Shown here: positions 4,854 through 10,801 of the stretch, in pieces | Layout: every line of letters starts with the position of its first letter | Numbering within the stretch: the first letter of the stretch is position 1 | Source: Dehalococcoidia bacterium | Lineage (GTDB): Bacteria > Chloroflexota > Dehalococcoidia > E44-bin15 | Direction: 5' to 3' | Length of the DNA: 13,971 nucleotides | Assembly (NCBI GenBank): GCA_030638665.1 | Contig: DAOWEF010000081.1 | Location: 1 to 13,971, forward strand | Notes under the pieces: model-generated | Told to the model about the DNA's origin: nothing | Seen by the model: the letters and a program-made list of their open reading frames with translations, nothing else | Database searches by the model: none | Position numbers and translations under genes: made by a program

Positions 4854-5219
4854 ATGAGCAGGCGCACCGAGCGGCTTAACGACCTGATCCGAGAGGAGAT
4901 AAGCGAACTGCTTCGCCGCCAAATTAAGGACCCGAGACTTGGCTGCTTTCTAACGGTGACCCGGGTAGATACCTCCCCGGACCTGAGATTTGCCAAGGTT
5001 TTTATCAGCATCATGGGCAGCGATGAGGAGAAGAATAAGGCGATGGATGGTTTGGCCTCGGCCTCAGGCTTCCTCTACAGGGAGCTCAGGGGACGCCTCT
5101 CATTGCACCGCACGCCCCAGCTGGTCTTTCATAAGGATGATTCCATCGAACGGGGCGCTCAGGTACTTCATCTGATGAAAGAGGTCACCAGTCACGAAGA
5201 AACTGATGTTGAGCATTAA
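4854..5219 (+). CDS. rbfA: Ribosome-binding factor A
   Basis: Single KH-like domain protein that binds the immature 30S subunit and is needed for late 16S rRNA maturation and cold adaptation. The 121 residues open with the canonical SRRTERLNDLIREEISELL and contain IKDPRLGCFLTVTRVDTSPDLRFAKVFIS (split here as IKDPRLGCFLTVTRV and DTSPDLRFAKVFIS) in the central sheet. They end with the diagnostic RTPQLVFHKDDSIERG (about 87-102). The length is normal for the family. ATG 4854 is three bases after the infB stop, with a GGG-type SD in the end of infB. The 3' end overlaps the truB start by 14 bases, so the two are probably translationally coupled. Confidence 0.95.
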   Translation: MSRRTERLNDLIREEISELLRRQIKDPRLGCFLTVTRVDTSPDLRFAKVFISIMGSDEEKNKAMDGLASASGFLYRELRGRLSLHRTPQLVFHKDDSIERGAQVLHLMKEVTSHEETDVEH

Positions 5220-6102
5220 CGGCATCCTCAACATCAATAAGCCCGCCGGGAAAACCTCCCTAGAGATTGTCGATCTGGTGAGGCGCTGGAGCAGGCAGCG
5301 ACACATCGGGCACGCTGGCACCCTAGACCCAGGAGCCACAGGTGTATTACCTATTTGCCTGGGGCAAGCAGCAAGGGTGAGCCCCTTTATCGTGGCGGCT
5401 CATAAAACCTATAGGGCTGAGATCGAGCTGGGCGTAGCCACCGATACCTATGATGCGGAGGGGAAGGTGACCCAACGTGTTGACCCTTCCCACATTACCA
5501 AAGAGCAGGTGGAGGGGGTGTTTCCCTCCCTTAGGGGCACTATCCTTCAGAAGCCCCCGATGTATAGCGCCCTGAAGCACCAAGGGGAACGCCTCTATAA
5601 GCTCGCCCGCGCCGGCATCACGGTAGAAAGGGAAGACAGAAAGGCTGAGGTCTTTCGTCTGGAACTCCTCCAGTGGCAGCCTCCCTTTTTCACTATCGAG
5701 GTGGAGTGTGGCAAGGGAACCTACATTCGCTCCCTGGCTCACGATCTTGGCCAGTCCCTCGGCTGTGGCGCCCACATCAGCAGATTGGTCCGCCTGAGGT
5801 GCGGACCCTTCGATATCGACGATAGTCTCACCCTTCCCCATCTTGAGGATTCCTTCCATCATAACTACTGGCAGGACTTCCTTTACCCCATGGATGTGGT
5901 GCTGGAGCACTGGATCGCCGCTATCGTGGGCAAAGAAAAGGAGCACGCTATTAGCAACGGTCGCCCGCTGGAACTAGACAATGGTAACGACAAGGGGTAT
6001 TGCCGCGCCTACTCCCTTGACGGGCGCTTCCTCGCTGTGCTTCGCTTCCTGCCGGAGAATGGCCTGTGGCAGCCGGAAAAGGTATTCTCTGGTGAGCAAT
6101 GA
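5206..6102 (+). CDS. truB: tRNA pseudouridine(55) synthase
   Basis: Converts U55 in the T-loop of elongator tRNAs to pseudouridine. The 298-residue protein has the TruB catalytic motif HAGTLDPGATGVLPICLG with catalytic Asp41. It also has the MYSALKHQGERLYKLAR segment (about 119-135) and CGKGTYIRSLAHDLG (168-182). The C-terminal 50-60 residues (from about 240, GKEKEHAISNGRPLE) look like the PUA-type RNA-binding domain. ATG 5206 overlaps the end of rbfA by 14 bases; TTG 5209 is an in-frame alternative. This is the last gene of the nusA operon. No clear intrinsic terminator follows, and an independent promoter for the next gene begins 24 bases later. Confidence 0.97.
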   Translation: MLSINGILNINKPAGKTSLEIVDLVRRWSRQRHIGHAGTLDPGATGVLPICLGQAARVSPFIVAAHKTYRAEIELGVATDTYDAEGKVTQRVDPSHITKEQVEGVFPSLRGTILQKPPMYSALKHQGERLYKLARAGITVEREDRKAEVFRLELLQWQPPFFTIEVECGKGTYIRSLAHDLGQSLGCGAHISRLVRLRCGPFDIDDSLTLPHLEDSFHHNYWQDFLYPMDVVLEHWIAAIVGKEKEHAISNGRPLELDNGNDKGYCRAYSLDGRFLAVLRFLPENGLWQPEKVFSGEQ

Positions 6103-6377: not shown

Positions 6378-7043
6378 TCAGCCTATTTGTGGTAGTTTTG
6401 CCAAGAGGGCTTGAACATTGGTAATCAGGATTTCATCGCTCTCTTTTTCGTCCAAGCCAGCCCCTCGGGCAACTTGGCGGGCTAAAGGTGGGGTGAGCAG
6501 TTCCGTCTCATCGTGGGCATCTGAGTTGAGAAGGAGTTTGGCTCCCGCAAGCCGAGCCATTTGAGCGATGTGACCATTGGTGAGCGAGTGACCTCTTCGG
6601 GCACTGACCTCGAGGAAGATGCCCGCAGTGGCGGCTAGTTCAGCCTCCTCAAGAGTGATGAGTCCGGGGTGTGCCAGAATATCAACATAAGGGCACTGAA
6701 GCGCTGCTTTATTAGTGCCCTTCTCTACGGGTTCGATGGTGGATTCGCCGTGCACCACCACCAGCCAAGCCCCCAGCTCTTTGGCCCGCCTTGCGGCCTC
6801 GCCGATTGCCCGGGGAGGGAGGTGGGTAAGCTCTATGCCGGGGATGGCGCGAATCGGCCAGTGTGCTCGCGCCAGGGCACAATCTGCGGCGATTTCCACG
6901 ATTACCCGCTCAAGATAGCCAACCCCGACATGGTCGGTGACGGCGATGGCGTGGTAATCCTGTTCAAGGGCTCGGCGGATTAGTTCCAAAGGTGATAAGG
7001 CACCATCGCTAAGTGAGGTATGGGTGTGAAAATCGTATATCAA
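6378..7043 (-). CDS. PHP-domain phosphoesterase (histidinol-phosphatase-like TIM-barrel)
   Basis: Metal-dependent phosphoesterase of the PHP superfamily, probably cytoplasmic, substrate unknown. The 221 residues hold a complete set of PHP metal ligands: HTHTSLSDG (His6, His8, Asp13), VTDHVG (Asp37-His38), PGIEL (Glu71), HGES (His98), AHPG (His125) and NSDAH (Asp175, His177). It is a stand-alone PHP domain of normal length with no polymerase or helical fusion. The start is TTG 7043 with GGAGGTG (7048-7054) four bases upstream on this strand. It is divergent from ino1 (40 bases between the starts) and converges on the DUF5679 gene. Possible substrates are sugar or inositol phosphates, given its neighbour ino1. 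Histidinol phosphatase is possible, but no his genes are nearby. Confidence 0.88.
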   Translation of the reverse strand: MIYDFHTHTSLSDGALSPLELIRRALEQDYHAIAVTDHVGVGYLERVIVEIAADCALARAHWPIRAIPGIELTHLPPRAIGEAARRAKELGAWLVVVHGESTIEPVEKGTNKAALQCPYVDILAHPGLITLEEAELAATAGIFLEVSARRGHSLTNGHIAQMARLAGAKLLLNSDAHDETELLTPPLARQVARGAGLDEKESDEILITNVQALLAKLPQIG

Positions 7044-7062: not shown

Positions 7063-7091
7063 ATTATAGGATAGGAGATAGATTTGGGCAA
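7063..7091 (-). promoter_or_regulatory. Promoter for the minus-strand PHP gene, overlapping the ino1 start
   Basis: On the minus strand, TTGCCC (7091-7086; four of six -35 matches) lies 17 bases from a perfect TATAAT (7068-7063). The predicted start near 7056 leaves a short leader of about 13 bases carrying the GGAGGTG SD. The -35 covers the first codons of ino1, and the region reads CTATTATAG on the plus strand, so a -10-like hexamer (TATTAT) exists in both orientations. Confidence 0.5.
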
Positions 7092-8160
7092 GATAAATGT
7101 GGCCATAATTGGCGTGGGGAATTGCGCCTCCTCGCTGGTGCAAGGCGTTCACTACTATCGTAACGCAGTAGAGAATGAGCCCGTCCCCGGGCTGATGCAT
7201 GTTAACCTGGGGGGCTATCATATCCACGACATCAACTTTGTCGCCGCCTTCGATATCGCCAAGAATAAGGTGGGTAAGGATATCGCCAGTGCGATATATG
7301 CCCCGCTGAATAATACCTTCAAATTCTGCCAGGTGCCCCGCACTGGGGTGAAAGTGTCCCGGGGGATGACCCATGATGGTCTGGGCAAATACCTCTCCCA
7401 GGTGATCACCAAAGCCCCGGGCTCCACCGAAAACATCGTTGAGATCCTTCAAAAAAGCCGCACCGACGTGGTGGTCAACTTCCTCCCCGTAGGAAGTGAA
7501 GAGGCCACGAAATGGTATATCGAGCAGGTGCTGACTGCAGGTTGTGGCTTTGTGAATTGCATTCCGGTGTTCATCGCCAGGGAGAAATACTGGCAGAACA
7601 GGTTCAGTGAGCGGGGACTGCCGATAATCGGCGACGATATAAAGAGCCAGGTGGGGGCCACCATCACCCACCGTGTGCTCACCAACCTCTTTCGCGACCG
7701 TGGTGTCAAACTGGAGCGAACCTATCAGCTGAACTTCGGCGGCAATACTGATTTTCTTAATATGCTGGAGCGTGAGCGGCTGGAGTCAAAGAGGATCTCC
7801 AAAACCGAGGCGGTAACCTCGCAACTGGACTTTAAAATCGAGCCGGATAATATTCACGTAGGACCAAGCGACTATGTTCCTTGGCTCGGCGACCGAAAAT
7901 TTTGTCACCTCCGCATGGAGGGGCGCACCTTCGGCGATGTCCCCCTCAATATTGAGGTAAAGCTTGAGGTATGGGACAGCCCCAACTCAGCAGGGGTGGT
8001 GGTAGACGCCATCCGGTGCTGCAAGCTGGCGATAGACCGCGGCATCGGCGGGTCACTTATCGGGCCATCTGCCTATTTTATGAAATCGCCCCCGGCTCAA
8101 TATACGGACGATGAAGCCAGAAGGATGGCGGAGGAGTTCATCGCCGGAGATGGCAAGTGA
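7084..8160 (+). CDS. ino1: Inositol-1-phosphate synthase (Ino1/MIPS, short prokaryotic type)
   Basis: NAD-dependent isomerase that turns D-glucose 6-phosphate into 1L-myo-inositol 1-phosphate, the entry point to all inositol compounds. The 358 residues begin with a Rossmann motif ([16 protein letters not shown], about 6-21). They carry the MIPS signature [15 protein letters not shown] (183-197) and [17 protein letters not shown] (217-233) followed by ESKRISKT. The short length resembles actinobacterial and archaeal enzymes rather than the eukaryotic enzyme of about 530 aa. TTG 7084 is preceded by AGGAG with correct spacing and gives the right N-terminus. Next on the same strand come a PHP phosphoesterase, a PimA-like glycosyltransferase and a CDP-alcohol phosphatidyltransferase. 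This points to inositol phospholipid rather than a soluble osmolyte as the main end product, though mycothiol-like or di-inositol-phosphate use cannot be excluded. Confidence 0.95.
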
Positions 8161-8167
8161 TCCGCCA

Positions 8168-8206
8168 CTAGCAGGGTACTCCCGATGCTTAATTGCATGA
8201 GGCTAG
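8168..8206 (+). other. Compact inverted-repeat structure in the ino1-PHP spacer
   Basis: The 76-base spacer can fold into a small three-way junction. CTAGC (8168-8172) pairs with GCTAG (8202-8206), GGG/CCC (8174-8176/8181-8183) closes a four-base loop, and ATGC/GCAT (8185-8188/8195-8198) closes a six-base loop. Helices are short and there is no T tract, so it is not a terminator by motif. Its function, if any, is unknown. Confidence 0.3.
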
Positions 8207-8236
8207 ATTGGGCTGTCCAAGAGGTTATCAGAGAGA

Positions 8237-9007
8237 ATGCACTCCCCAGAAACGCTAATTAAGGAAAGGGAATACGGAGCGGCGGACATCCATATCCACA
8301 CTAGCGTGCACGATGGCATGGCCAGCGTTCCTGAGATCCTCGAAGCCGTGGCGCGCAAGGGCGATCTCTATGTCATTGCCATCACCGATCACGATGAAAT
8401 TTCCGGCAGCTACCAAGCGAGGGAGCTCGCCGCAAAGCGCAACTACCCTTTCGAAGTAGTGATCGGCATGGAGGTGAACACCCTTGAGGGGCACCTGCTG
8501 GCCCTCTTTATAGAGCGCCCGGTCCCCATCCAGCAGCCACTGGCAACCACTATCGCAGCGATCCACGCCCAGGGTGGCCTTTGTGTAGCGCCTCATCCCA
8601 TGAACTGGCTGACAGATAGCATCAGTCGGCAGAGCCTGGAGAAAATCCTCAACAGCAGTGAACCGGATATCTATCTTGACGGCATAGAGACTGTTAACGC
8701 TACGATTGCGGGGCGCATCTCCAATCGGAGGGCAAAAAGGTTCAATCTAAAATACAATCTTGCGGAAACGGGGGGCAGTGATGCCCACTTCCTAGCCGCC
8801 GTAGGTAGTGGTCTCACCCTGTTTCCTGGCCGAAGTGCCCAGGAACTGAAAAGAAGCATCCTGGAGAGGACGACCCAGGCCCGAAATGGCACTCGGGTGA
8901 GGCTTAACGAGATCGGACTTATTCAAATCATCAGGCAACAGCGCAAGAGCAGAGGGTATTTCGTTCGTGGCATGCTGAAAAATTTCACCAGGTGGCTTTC
9001 CCAGTGA
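8237..9007 (+). CDS. PHP-domain phosphoesterase in the inositol-lipid cluster
   Basis: Second PHP-superfamily phosphoesterase, 256 residues. Metal ligands are present in order: ADIHIHTSVHDG (His19, His21, Asp26), ITDHDE (Asp51-His52), GMEVNT (Glu79), EGHLLAL (His86), APHPM (His120) and GGSDAH (Asp182, His184). It resembles the YciV-like/PHP_HisPPase branch (3',5'-nucleotide phosphatase, 5'-3' exonuclease or small-phosphoester hydrolase in other bacteria). Its C-terminal 40 residues are basic and aromatic (RKSRGYFVRGMLKNFTRWL) and might touch membrane. The ATG 8237 has a modest GAGAGA SD. Its stop overlaps the next gene's GTG (GTGA), so it is translationally coupled to the glycosyltransferase. 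That coupling suggests a role in the same lipid pathway, for example removing phosphate from inositol phosphate or phosphatidylinositol phosphate. This is a hypothesis, not a motif-based call. Confidence 0.9.
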   Translation: MHSPETLIKEREYGAADIHIHTSVHDGMASVPEILEAVARKGDLYVIAITDHDEISGSYQARELAAKRNYPFEVVIGMEVNTLEGHLLALFIERPVPIQQPLATTIAAIHAQGGLCVAPHPMNWLTDSISRQSLEKILNSSEPDIYLDGIETVNATIAGRISNRRAKRFNLKYNLAETGGSDAHFLAAVGSGLTLFPGRSAQELKRSILERTTQARNGTRVRLNEIGLIQIIRQQRKSRGYFVRGMLKNFTRWLSQ

Positions 9008-10116
9008 AGATCGCTCTCGTTTCCCCCTACGACTATGCTTACCCCGGTGGGGTGGTCATCCATATCGCCCACCTCTATGAGCAGTTCACCGGGATGGGGC
9101 ACGATGTCAGGATCATCACCCCTTATTCTGGTAGCAGGGACTCCCTTGATAGTCAGGACATCATCCCTATGGGTAGGCCTGTCCCCATACCATCAGGCGG
9201 CTCTATCGCCAGGGCCACCCTATCGCCGATGTTGTCCTCCCCGACGCGGGCCATCTTGGAGCGGGAAAGGTTTGACATCATACATCTCCATGAGCCAATG
9301 GGTTCCACCCTAACCCTCTCCACGCTTCGGGTATCGAACACCATTAATGTGGGCACCTTTCACGCCTGCCACAGCAGCACCATGGGATATCGAATAATGA
9401 GCCCCTTTGTCATGAGGTGGTTCAGCAAGCTCCATGGCAAGATCGCCGTTTCTAAGCCGGCAATGGATTTCATCGGTAAGCATTTCCCCGGCGAATACGC
9501 GATAATCCCCAACGGCATCGACGTTGAGCACTTCTCCGCCGCCGTGTCCCCTATCGACAGGTTCAGTGACAGTAAATTGAACATCCTCTTCGTTGGTCGC
9601 CTAGAAAAGCGCAAAGGGCTGAGGTATCTCCTGGGGGCCTATAAAAGGATGAAGCAGGAATTGCCCAACTCCCGGCTCATTGTGGTAGGGCCAGGGAAGC
9701 GCCAAAAATATGAAAAGCTGGTAAGAAAGGCGAACCTGAAGGATGTGGTCTTCACCGGCTATGTACCCAATGAAGAGCTCCATACATATTATCAAACGGC
9801 TGACCTTTTCTGCACTCCGGCTACCGGAGAGGAGAGCTTTGGCATCATCCTGCTGGAGGCCATGGCTGCCTCAAAGCCCATCGTCGCCTCAGCGATTGAG
9901 GGCTATGCCAGCGTGATGAGCCACGGCGTTGAGGGGCTAATGGTGCCTCCTAGGGATGAACAGGCACTTGCCAGCGCCCTGATTCAACTCCTCAGCGATG
10001 AACCCTTGCGTCGAGAGATGGGCGCAAGGGGAAGGCTAAAGGCGGAGGAATGCAGTTGGCCGAACGTCGCCAGAAGGGTGATCGAATACTATACGAGCTT
10101 GCGCAACGGCTCATAA
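9004..10116 (+). CDS. GT4-family glycosyltransferase, PimA-like
   Basis: Retaining GT-B glycosyltransferase of family GT4. With GTG 9004 as start the protein has 370 residues and begins MKIALVSPYDYAYPGGV, the usual N-terminus for PimA-like enzymes. The GTG at 8992 would add only MAFP. GTG 9004 also overlaps the PHP stop (GTGA) and has GGTGG eight bases upstream. Features are the PGGV acceptor loop (14-17), HLHEP (94-98), PNGID (169-173), VGRLEKRKG (197-205) and VVGPG (227-231). The EX7E donor site is ESFGIILLE (Glu277, Glu285). PimA transfers mannose from GDP-Man to phosphatidylinositol on the cytoplasmic face of the membrane. The neighbours ino1 and a CDP-alcohol phosphatidyltransferase support a phosphatidylinositol acceptor. 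Sugar donor specificity cannot be read from these motifs; a diacylglycerol or other lipid acceptor remains possible. Confidence 0.9.
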   Translation: MKIALVSPYDYAYPGGVVIHIAHLYEQFTGMGHDVRIITPYSGSRDSLDSQDIIPMGRPVPIPSGGSIARATLSPMLSSPTRAILERERFDIIHLHEPMGSTLTLSTLRVSNTINVGTFHACHSSTMGYRIMSPFVMRWFSKLHGKIAVSKPAMDFIGKHFPGEYAIIPNGIDVEHFSAAVSPIDRFSDSKLNILFVGRLEKRKGLRYLLGAYKRMKQELPNSRLIVVGPGKRQKYEKLVRKANLKDVVFTGYVPNEELHTYYQTADLFCTPATGEESFGIILLEAMAASKPIVASAIEGYASVMSHGVEGLMVPPRDEQALASALIQLLSDEPLRREMGARGRLKAEECSWPNVARRVIEYYTSLRNGS

Positions 10117-10143
10117 CCTTAAAAGGGTAAACTTATTAATAAC

Positions 10144-10168
10144 GCCCCTGGCTCCCTGCACCAGGGGC
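10144..10168 (+). promoter_or_regulatory. Perfect 8-bp hairpin with loop complementary to downstream SD
   Basis: GCCCCTGG (10144-10151) and CCAGGGGC (10161-10168) form a perfect GC-rich stem with a nine-base loop. The sequence after it is not T-rich, so it is a weak terminator at best. Loop bases CTCCC (10152-10156) are complementary to GGGAG (10183-10187) inside the SD of the next gene, so an H-type pseudoknot could hide that SD. Confidence 0.55.
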
Positions 10169-10189
10169 TTGGTAGATTTAGGGGGAGAA

Positions 10190-10801
10190 ATGTGGCGACC
10201 TGCTGAAAAAATTAGCGACGGTGCCCACCGCCTTGCCGAGCCGGTGGGCCGTGTGGTGGCTAAGACGAGGGTGCCGCCTAACTTCCTGACCATTCTGGGC
10301 TTCTCGTGCAATGTTGGCGTCGCCTGGATAATCTCCCAGGGCCACTTCGTCCTCGCCGGCTTGTTGATCATAGTAGCAGGGATCTTCGACCTCCTCGATG
10401 GGGCAGTGGCCAGGCACACCAATAGAGTCACCAAGTTCGGCGCTCTCCTCGATTCAACCCTGGACCGCTTATCCGAGGGGGTGCTTCTTTTCGGGCTGTT
10501 ATGGTATTACGCCTGGCAACAGGATACCTCCCTCGAGGTGATCCTCATCTTTGCTGCCATCGTAGGCTCCATGCTCATCAGCTATGTGAGGGCCAGGGCT
10601 GAAGGATTGGGGCTGGATGGCGAGGTAGGGATAATGAGGAGAACGGTGAGGATTCTTACCCTATCCATCGGACTCATGTTGAGCCCATTTGAACCCTGTC
10701 TCCTCGTGGCCCTCTGGGGCTTAGCCGTTCTTACCAACCTGACAGCAGTGCATCGCCTTATCTATGTATGGTACAAAGACCGGAAGGGGCCGCCGAATTG
10801 A
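10190..10801 (+). CDS. CDP-alcohol phosphatidyltransferase (candidate phosphatidylinositol phosphate synthase)
   Basis: Integral membrane enzyme that joins CDP-diacylglycerol to an alcohol phosphate. The complete family signature DLLDGAVARHTNRV-TKFGALLDSTLDR (Asp67, Asp70, Gly71, Arg75, Gly84, Asp88, Asp92) is the metal and CDP site. It is preceded by the VPPNFLTILG entry helix, and about six hydrophobic segments follow the usual layout. ATG 10190 is preferred because AGGGGG lies just before it. TTG 10169, 21 bases upstream, directly abuts the hairpin and has no usable SD; it would give 210 rather than 203 residues. Being last in the ino1-PHP-GT4 run, inositol 1-phosphate is the most likely alcohol (PgsA1/PIPS-type, giving phosphatidylinositol phosphate). 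Glycerol-3-phosphate (PgsA proper) is the main alternative. The gene converges on the peptidase gene with 15 bases between stops. Confidence 0.9.
   Translation: MWRPAEKISDGAHRLAEPVGRVVAKTRVPPNFLTILGFSCNVGVAWIISQGHFVLAGLLIIVAGIFDLLDGAVARHTNRVTKFGALLDSTLDRLSEGVLLFGLLWYYAWQQDTSLEVILIFAAIVGSMLISYVRARAEGLGLDGEVGIMRRTVRILTLSIGLMLSPFEPCLLVALWGLAVLTNLTAVHRLIYVWYKDRKGPPN

Follow-up and report, generated by a model that had tools for sequence, protein, structure and literature searches.

The ino1-PHP-GT4-PT locus

The window analysed in this work is a stretch of 13,971 nucleotides from a Dehalococcoidia bacterium (contig DAOWEF010000081.1), and its plus strand carries ino1, a gene of the PHP family, a glycosyltransferase gene of family GT4 and a gene for a CDP-alcohol phosphatidyltransferase (PT) (Table 1). 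Judging from sequence, the locus is very probably the Dehalococcoidia version of the phosphatidylinositol (PI) / PI-glycoside pathway. Protein families, pocket residues, gene order and distribution were observed directly, and from them we infer the reactions and the lipids. A preliminary description of this DNA had listed four same-strand genes of these families; all of the open reading frames (ORFs) are present, and their Pfam and NCBIfam matches agree (Inos-1-P_synth, PHP with PHP_C, GT4 and CDP-OH_P_transf). It had also reported that the PHP and GT4 genes overlap by GTGA, which is real if GT4 starts at GTG 9004, and most aligned relatives begin at the residue encoded by this codon. For the PT, the start ATG 10190, preceded by AGGGGGAG, was preferred over TTG 10169. 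A gap of 76 bases, which holds no acyltransferase, separates ino1 from the PHP gene, and with ATG 10190 as its start the PT follows GT4 after 73 bases. A GC-rich stem-loop was seen at 10144-10168, after the GT4 stop and ahead of the PT start, and the terminator scan called it on the minus strand only. The promoter scan of the window was uninformative (3 sites against 2.7 expected), and the window contained no tRNA and no RNA family reaching its gathering score.

Table 1. Features of the window, with positions counted from its first nucleotide
Feature	Position	Strand	Remarks
ino1, myo-inositol-3-phosphate synthase, actinobacterial type	7084..8160	+	358 aa; TTG start; AGGAG six bases upstream
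PHP-family metal-dependent phosphoesterase, PHP_C domain and basic C-terminal tail	8237..9007	+	256 aa; candidate phosphatidylinositol-phosphate phosphatase
PimA-like GT4 glycosyltransferase	9004..10116	+	ORF open from in-frame GTG 8992
Predicted phosphatidylinositol-phosphate synthase (PT), class I CDP-alcohol phosphatidyltransferase	10190..10801	+	203 aa; ORF open from TTG 10169
Second PHP-family gene, PRK06361 type	6378..7043	-	NF004981 267 bits, cut-off 117
rbfA and truB	4854..6102	+	TruB by PF01509; rbfA presumed from its sequence

The Ino1 of the window matches PF01658 with 128.5 bits, and its best match in the PDB is 1gr0 (476 bits across residues 3-355), which we take to be the Ino1 of Mycobacterium tuberculosis. 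On this near full-length similarity to M. tuberculosis Ino1, the protein is assigned to the actinobacterial type. The best PDB match of the GT4 protein is PimA (4n9w, 187 bits), followed by another enzyme at 87 bits. With a GT4 profile built from 20 sequences, PimA scored 321 bits over profile positions 1-369, the next enzyme 139 bits over part of the profile, and the D-inositol 3-phosphate glycosyltransferase 7qsg 99.6 bits. By these scores, PimA is the closest relative of this protein among the solved GT4 enzymes, and it is so over the whole length.

Identity of the phosphatidyltransferase and the other phospholipid genes

The PT of the window carries PF01066, and the top four NCBIfam models on it are all of the inositol type, led by NF040950 for archaetidylinositol-phosphate synthase (152.6 bits) and NF045883 for phosphatidylinositol-phosphate synthase (PIPS; 150.1 bits). 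The PgsA model TIGR00560 gave 37.9 bits against a cut-off of 109.1. Both inositol models match all members of alignment A1, which comprises 23 module PTs (the window and 22 relatives). Among solved structures, the window PT matched PIPS 6h53 with 110 bits, and the A1 profile scored 172 bits on M. tuberculosis PIPS and 136 bits on the PIPS of 5d92, but 30.7 bits on phosphatidylserine (PS) synthase and 29.5 bits on phosphatidylglycerol (PG)-phosphate synthase. Enzymes of this superfamily share the motif DxxDGxxAR...GxxxDxxxD, and its residues (D74, D77, G78, A81, R82, G91, D95 and D99) are invariant in 23/23 module PTs. The substrate pocket of M. tuberculosis PIPS is given in a passage of PMC6506517 as R94, S132, K135, R137, R152, R155 and R195. 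The window counterparts are R100, S138, R141, R143, R158, R161 and R196, and together with Y139, which corresponds to Y133 of M. tuberculosis, they read RSYRRRRR. R100, S138, Y139, R158, R161 and R196 are invariant in all 23, and the places of K135 and R137 each hold arginine in 22 and lysine in one.

The PgsA rows differ from this pattern: all six (that of E. coli and five of the class) are without R94, Y133, R152, R155 and R195, although the PgsA alignment is less sure at these positions, and they keep the serine in four cases and arginine at the K135 place in all. The whole pattern is absent from the six PgsA rows and two rows resembling PS synthase (PSS-like) and present in two solved PIPS. 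In the tree, PgsA forms a separate clade (support 99/98). The PT thus does not group with PgsA, an outcome in keeping with the preliminary description, and a PgsA identity was ruled out by the scores (172 against 29.5 bits), by the PIPS-type pocket and by the tree. We assign the PT to the PIPS family, and transfer of an inositol phosphate is predicted.

The other phospholipid genes were counted in 100 Dehalococcoidia genomes (G000-G099), with a high-quality subset of 60 (completeness of at least 90% and contamination of at most 5%); in 14/14 control genomes, a PF01066 member was detected. Exactly one PF01066 match was found in 39/60 high-quality genomes, and in 37 of these 39 (all but G008 and G073) the best match to the window PT scored 110 bits or more. 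PgsA passed its cut-off in 3/100 genomes and reached at least 90 bits in 5/100, two of them among the 60. PS decarboxylase was found in 5/100 (four among the 60), PgpA in 2/100 and the CdsA family in 95/100, the window's own genome included. The 39 comprise the four single-contig genomes of family f15 (G027, G062, G080 and G094), which have 27, 28, 21 and 30 PF13486 reductive dehalogenase matches, respectively, with some genes counting twice; on this abundance, they are taken to be Dehalococcoides- or Dehalogenimonas-like. Each of them has one PF01066 and one CdsA-family match, and none has PgsA at 90 bits, PgpA or PS decarboxylase, phospholipase D-type enzymes being outside this search. A second class I CDP-alcohol phosphatidyltransferase is missing from most high-quality genomes. 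Their main phospholipids are therefore probably inositol lipids, which may take the place of PG, cardiolipin and phosphatidylethanolamine (PE) across much of the class.

Of the second or alternative PTs, ten were scanned: five were of the DIPPS/archaetidylinositol type, two PSS-like, one weakly PgsA/Cls-like (G003) and two unplaced (L174 and L181). The PSS-like enzymes (G099 and G015) have PS decarboxylase on the same contig in both cases. Second PTs related to the DIPPS/archaetidylinositol type occur in part of the class (L164, L165, L167-L169 and L175, in G004, G008, G064, G072, G035 and G092).

Gene order, acyltransferases and neighbouring genes

In the same 100 genomes, the PT was found in 95 at E 1e-3 and in 91 as a strong match of at least 92 bits, and GT4 in 85 at E 1e-50. 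Ino1 was found in 92 at E 1e-3, or 85 after removal of six weak hits in longer frames and one contig-edge fragment. In the six genomes concerned (G038, G046, G072, G082, G088 and G091), no strong actinobacterial-type Ino1 was found; their weak hits fall in frames of about 440-514 codons, which may encode the longer type of Ino1. The operon-type PHP protein, called where the best match was at least 137 bits (weaker hits elsewhere, of at most 88 bits, were treated as other PHP proteins), is present in 53/100.

The order of these genes is conserved far beyond chance. GT4 lies immediately upstream of the PT on the same strand in 77/83 genomes with both (77/79 with both on one contig), PHP immediately upstream of GT4 in 45/49 (45/45 on one contig), and ino1 at most 7 kb upstream of the PT in 65/82 (65/67 on one contig). 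The one-contig exceptions are found in G020 and G078. The gene directly before GT4 is ino1 in 30 genomes, which represent 21 families including f15, and the recurrent order in the class is ino1-[acyltransferases]-[PHP]-GT4-PT. Conservation of the order proposed in the preliminary description therefore holds across Dehalococcoidia. Its four-gene module stands in part: ino1, GT4 and the PT recur, but PHP, with its presence in about half of the genomes, does not belong to the class-wide core. In family f44 (L049 in G061; G079), ino1 was observed directly before the PT. These two genomes gave no match to GT4 at E 1e-50, to the operon-type PHP or to PF03279, which suggests that they make plain PI only.

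Gene neighbourhoods were drawn for 40 stretches from 38 genomes, several of them truncated by contig ends. In 17/40, a PF03279 acyltransferase precedes PHP, with ino1 on its other side wherever the stretch includes that gene. The nine such acyltransferases that were scanned all belong to PF03279, and for the two compared with structures PatA was the best match (87.6 bits against 40.4 for lipid A lauroyltransferase, and 71.6 against 60.9). PF03279 occurs in 53/100 genomes and in none of G000-G004; no acyltransferase was found in the 94%-complete congener G001 or in the window operon, and relatives such as G005 and G050 have one in the operon. Thus the combination of PIPS, PatA-type acyltransferase and PimA occurs in relatives and not in the window, whose genus either lost the genes for acylation or was always without them. 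Across whole genomes, 43 have both PHP and PF03279, 10 PHP only, 10 PF03279 only and 37 neither (n=100). By family, the figures are 26, 2, 8 and 22, respectively, with a Fisher p of 1.9e-7, which is optimistic because families share ancestry. An acylated PI-glycoside is the likely product in many relatives, to judge from these genes. The resemblance to the actinobacterial PI / PI-mannoside pathway noted in the preliminary description is therefore closer than was first claimed, because many relatives carry PatA-family acyltransferases in the same operon.

Between truB and ino1 the window contains the second PHP gene, divergent from ino1 and about 40 bases from it. It adjoins ino1 in 17/40 stretches, nine with the operon PHP and eight without, and in the two f15 stretches that were read there is no second PHP beside ino1 and truB directly precedes it. 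This gene is not clearly a member of the pathway. The truB gene lies upstream of ino1 in 18/40 stretches, some of the others being truncated by contig ends. The remaining upstream neighbours are presumably proS, nusA, ylxR, infB and rbfA. Downstream of the module and convergent with it are a peptidase MA gene, identified by search, and what we take to be prfB and an endonuclease V gene.

Proposed pathway and its meaning for Dehalococcoidia

We hypothesize that Ino1 would convert glucose-6-phosphate to myo-inositol-3-phosphate, which the PT would couple to CDP-diacylglycerol, supplied by CdsA from elsewhere in the genome, to give phosphatidylinositol phosphate (PIP). A phosphatase, for which the PHP protein is a candidate, would then turn PIP into PI. 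The PimA-like GT4 enzyme would add a hexose to the inositol, probably mannose from GDP-mannose, and the glycolipid would be acylated by PatA-family acyltransferases in many relatives outside the window's genus.

Several observations weigh against this pathway. The window PT lies under the NCBI cut-offs of both inositol models (150.1 against 170 and 152.6 against 180) and Ino1 under that of TIGR03450 mycothiol_INO1 (526 against 638 bits), so their exact equivalence to the curated enzymes is not certified. The pocket pattern is also present in 4/4 DIPPS/archaeal-type paralogues, with the same residues in the second-PT rows L164, L167, L169 and L175, and therefore marks the inositol-phosphate type of enzyme and not PIPS alone. 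The fork of the tree that unites the module PTs, the PIPS references and the DIPPS-like paralogues has support of 88/79, with the paralogues nested among the rest. PHP is absent from 39/91 genomes with a strong PT match, all four f15 genomes included, and PgpA, tried as the PIP phosphatase, is present in only 2/100, so neither family covers this step in many genomes. Lgt, in addition, was found in 92/100 genomes, including the four single-contig f15 genomes, so the expectation that it would vanish together with PgsA failed. The known donor of Lgt is PG, and its presence argues that some PG is made.

The persistence of Lgt in genomes with one PF01066 match could be accounted for by a promiscuous PT that yields PG-phosphate as well as PIP; the class would then keep PG and cardiolipin though recognisable PgsA is nearly gone. 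We consider this unlikely: the PT keeps the pocket residues at which the PgsA rows differ, the profile score on the PG-phosphate synthase structure is far below that on PIPS, and PgpA, a usual PG-phosphate phosphatase, is nearly missing. Another explanation, that Ino1 works towards a soluble product (di-myo-inositol phosphate or an inositol thiol), that the PT makes an ordinary phospholipid and that the neighbours are loosely clustered, seems highly improbable. It agrees with the naming of TIGR03450 for the mycothiol Ino1 and with the DIPPS-like second PTs in part of the class, but it leaves the preference of the GT4 profile for PimA over 7qsg, the ino1-PT pair kept without GT4 (at E 1e-50) in the two f44 genomes and the single PF01066 match in 39/60 high-quality genomes without an explanation. 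The PI / PI-glycoside pathway is thus preferred.

Within this pathway, the role of the PHP protein in turning PIP into PI, in those lineages that have it, is rather doubtful, although only a phosphatase is missing from the pathway, PgpA is nearly absent and the PHP gene directly precedes GT4 in 45/45 genomes with both on one contig. Its fold is near that of PHP enzymes including 2yb1, which was solved with AMP and phosphate; its presumed metal ligands are invariant, and its basic tail, with a helix predicted at low confidence, would suit binding to an anionic membrane. On the other hand, no lipid substrate is known for the closest structures, and the presence of PHP tracks that of the PF03279 acyltransferases, which could instead indicate a step on the acylated glycolipid. 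As it is missing from 39/91 strong-PT genomes, PHP cannot be the universal PIP phosphatase and was kept as a lineage-specific candidate.

Clusters of this kind are known chiefly from M. tuberculosis and related bacteria; the Dehalococcoidia are a quite different group, of soils and sediments. The mycobacterial PI-mannoside operon, which we take to be ordered pgsA1-patA-pimA (presumably Rv2612c-Rv2611c-Rv2610c), shares with the Dehalococcoidia locus PIPS, PimA, a PatA-family acyltransferase (in relatives only) and an Ino1 of the same type. In Dehalococcoidia, unlike in that operon, ino1 lies inside the operon, the PT comes last, roughly half of the genomes carry an inserted PHP gene, the number of acyltransferases ranges from none (as in the window) to two, and truB is found upstream in 18/40 stretches. 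In the Bacteroides cluster BT_1522-1526, as outlined in part of PMC9246714, myo-inositol-phosphate synthase and PIPS are likewise encoded together, with a dedicated PgpA-like PIP phosphatase, and the pathway also feeds inositol sphingolipids. By contrast, PgpA is rare in Dehalococcoidia and a PimA-like glycosyltransferase stands in the cluster.

Among examples from 80 loci, GT4 and PT are neighbours on two Thermomicrobiaceae/Thermomicrobium contigs (L090 and L117) and one Ktedonobacterales contig (L096), a Dormiibacterota contig (L160) has ino1-acyltransferase-GT4-PT, and a Chloroheliaceae contig (L088) has PHP-GT4-PT. PI is reported from Chloroflexus and acylmannosyl-PI lipids from Thermomicrobia, and the predicted products thus exist within the phylum Chloroflexota. 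In Dictyobacter, of another Chloroflexota class, PI is reported in a passage of PMC12453558, along with PG and diphosphatidylglycerol, whereas PgsA passed its cut-off in only 3/100 Dehalococcoidia. In the open literature, most subscription papers being outside its scope, no report was found, going by titles, abstract openings and selected passages, of inositol lipids or of this cluster in Dehalococcoidia, and nothing on Thermomicrobia acylmannosyl-PI, Chloroflexi PI mannoside or PIPS with a PHP domain. The authors of PMC11112749 state, in an excerpt of that paper, that detailed data on the membrane of Dehalococcoides are not known to them. PI was once regarded as a trait of actinobacteria and eukaryotes and of no other eubacteria (an excerpt of PMC1586193), a view that a class-wide PI pathway in Chloroflexota undercuts.

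The enzymes are ordinary and the pathway is a variant of the known PI / PI-glycoside route; the finding is sound. Its largest consequence, invisible from the window alone, lies in the PT often being the sole member of its superfamily in the genome. We tentatively hypothesize, as a possibility somewhat less than probable, that most Dehalococcoidia, including rdhA-rich organohalide respirers, have inositol phospholipids as their only CDP-diacylglycerol-derived phospholipids, with no PG, cardiolipin or PE. PI and PI-glycosides would then carry the membrane charge, PI or its glycoside would stand in for PG as the diacylglyceryl donor of Lgt, and PHP would be the PIP phosphatase where present. Where present, the PHP gene offers a candidate for the PIP phosphatase, an enzyme that a 2019 paper on M. 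tuberculosis called yet-unidentified (PMC6506517). Moreover, with Lgt near universal and recognisable PgsA nearly absent, which lipid serves as donor for lipoproteins becomes a sharp question. Gene content predicts inositol lipids, little or no PG and no PE in most genomes, and given the class-wide conservation, the PatA-family genes and the lack of a second PT in most good genomes, this prediction is clear, cheap and consequential.

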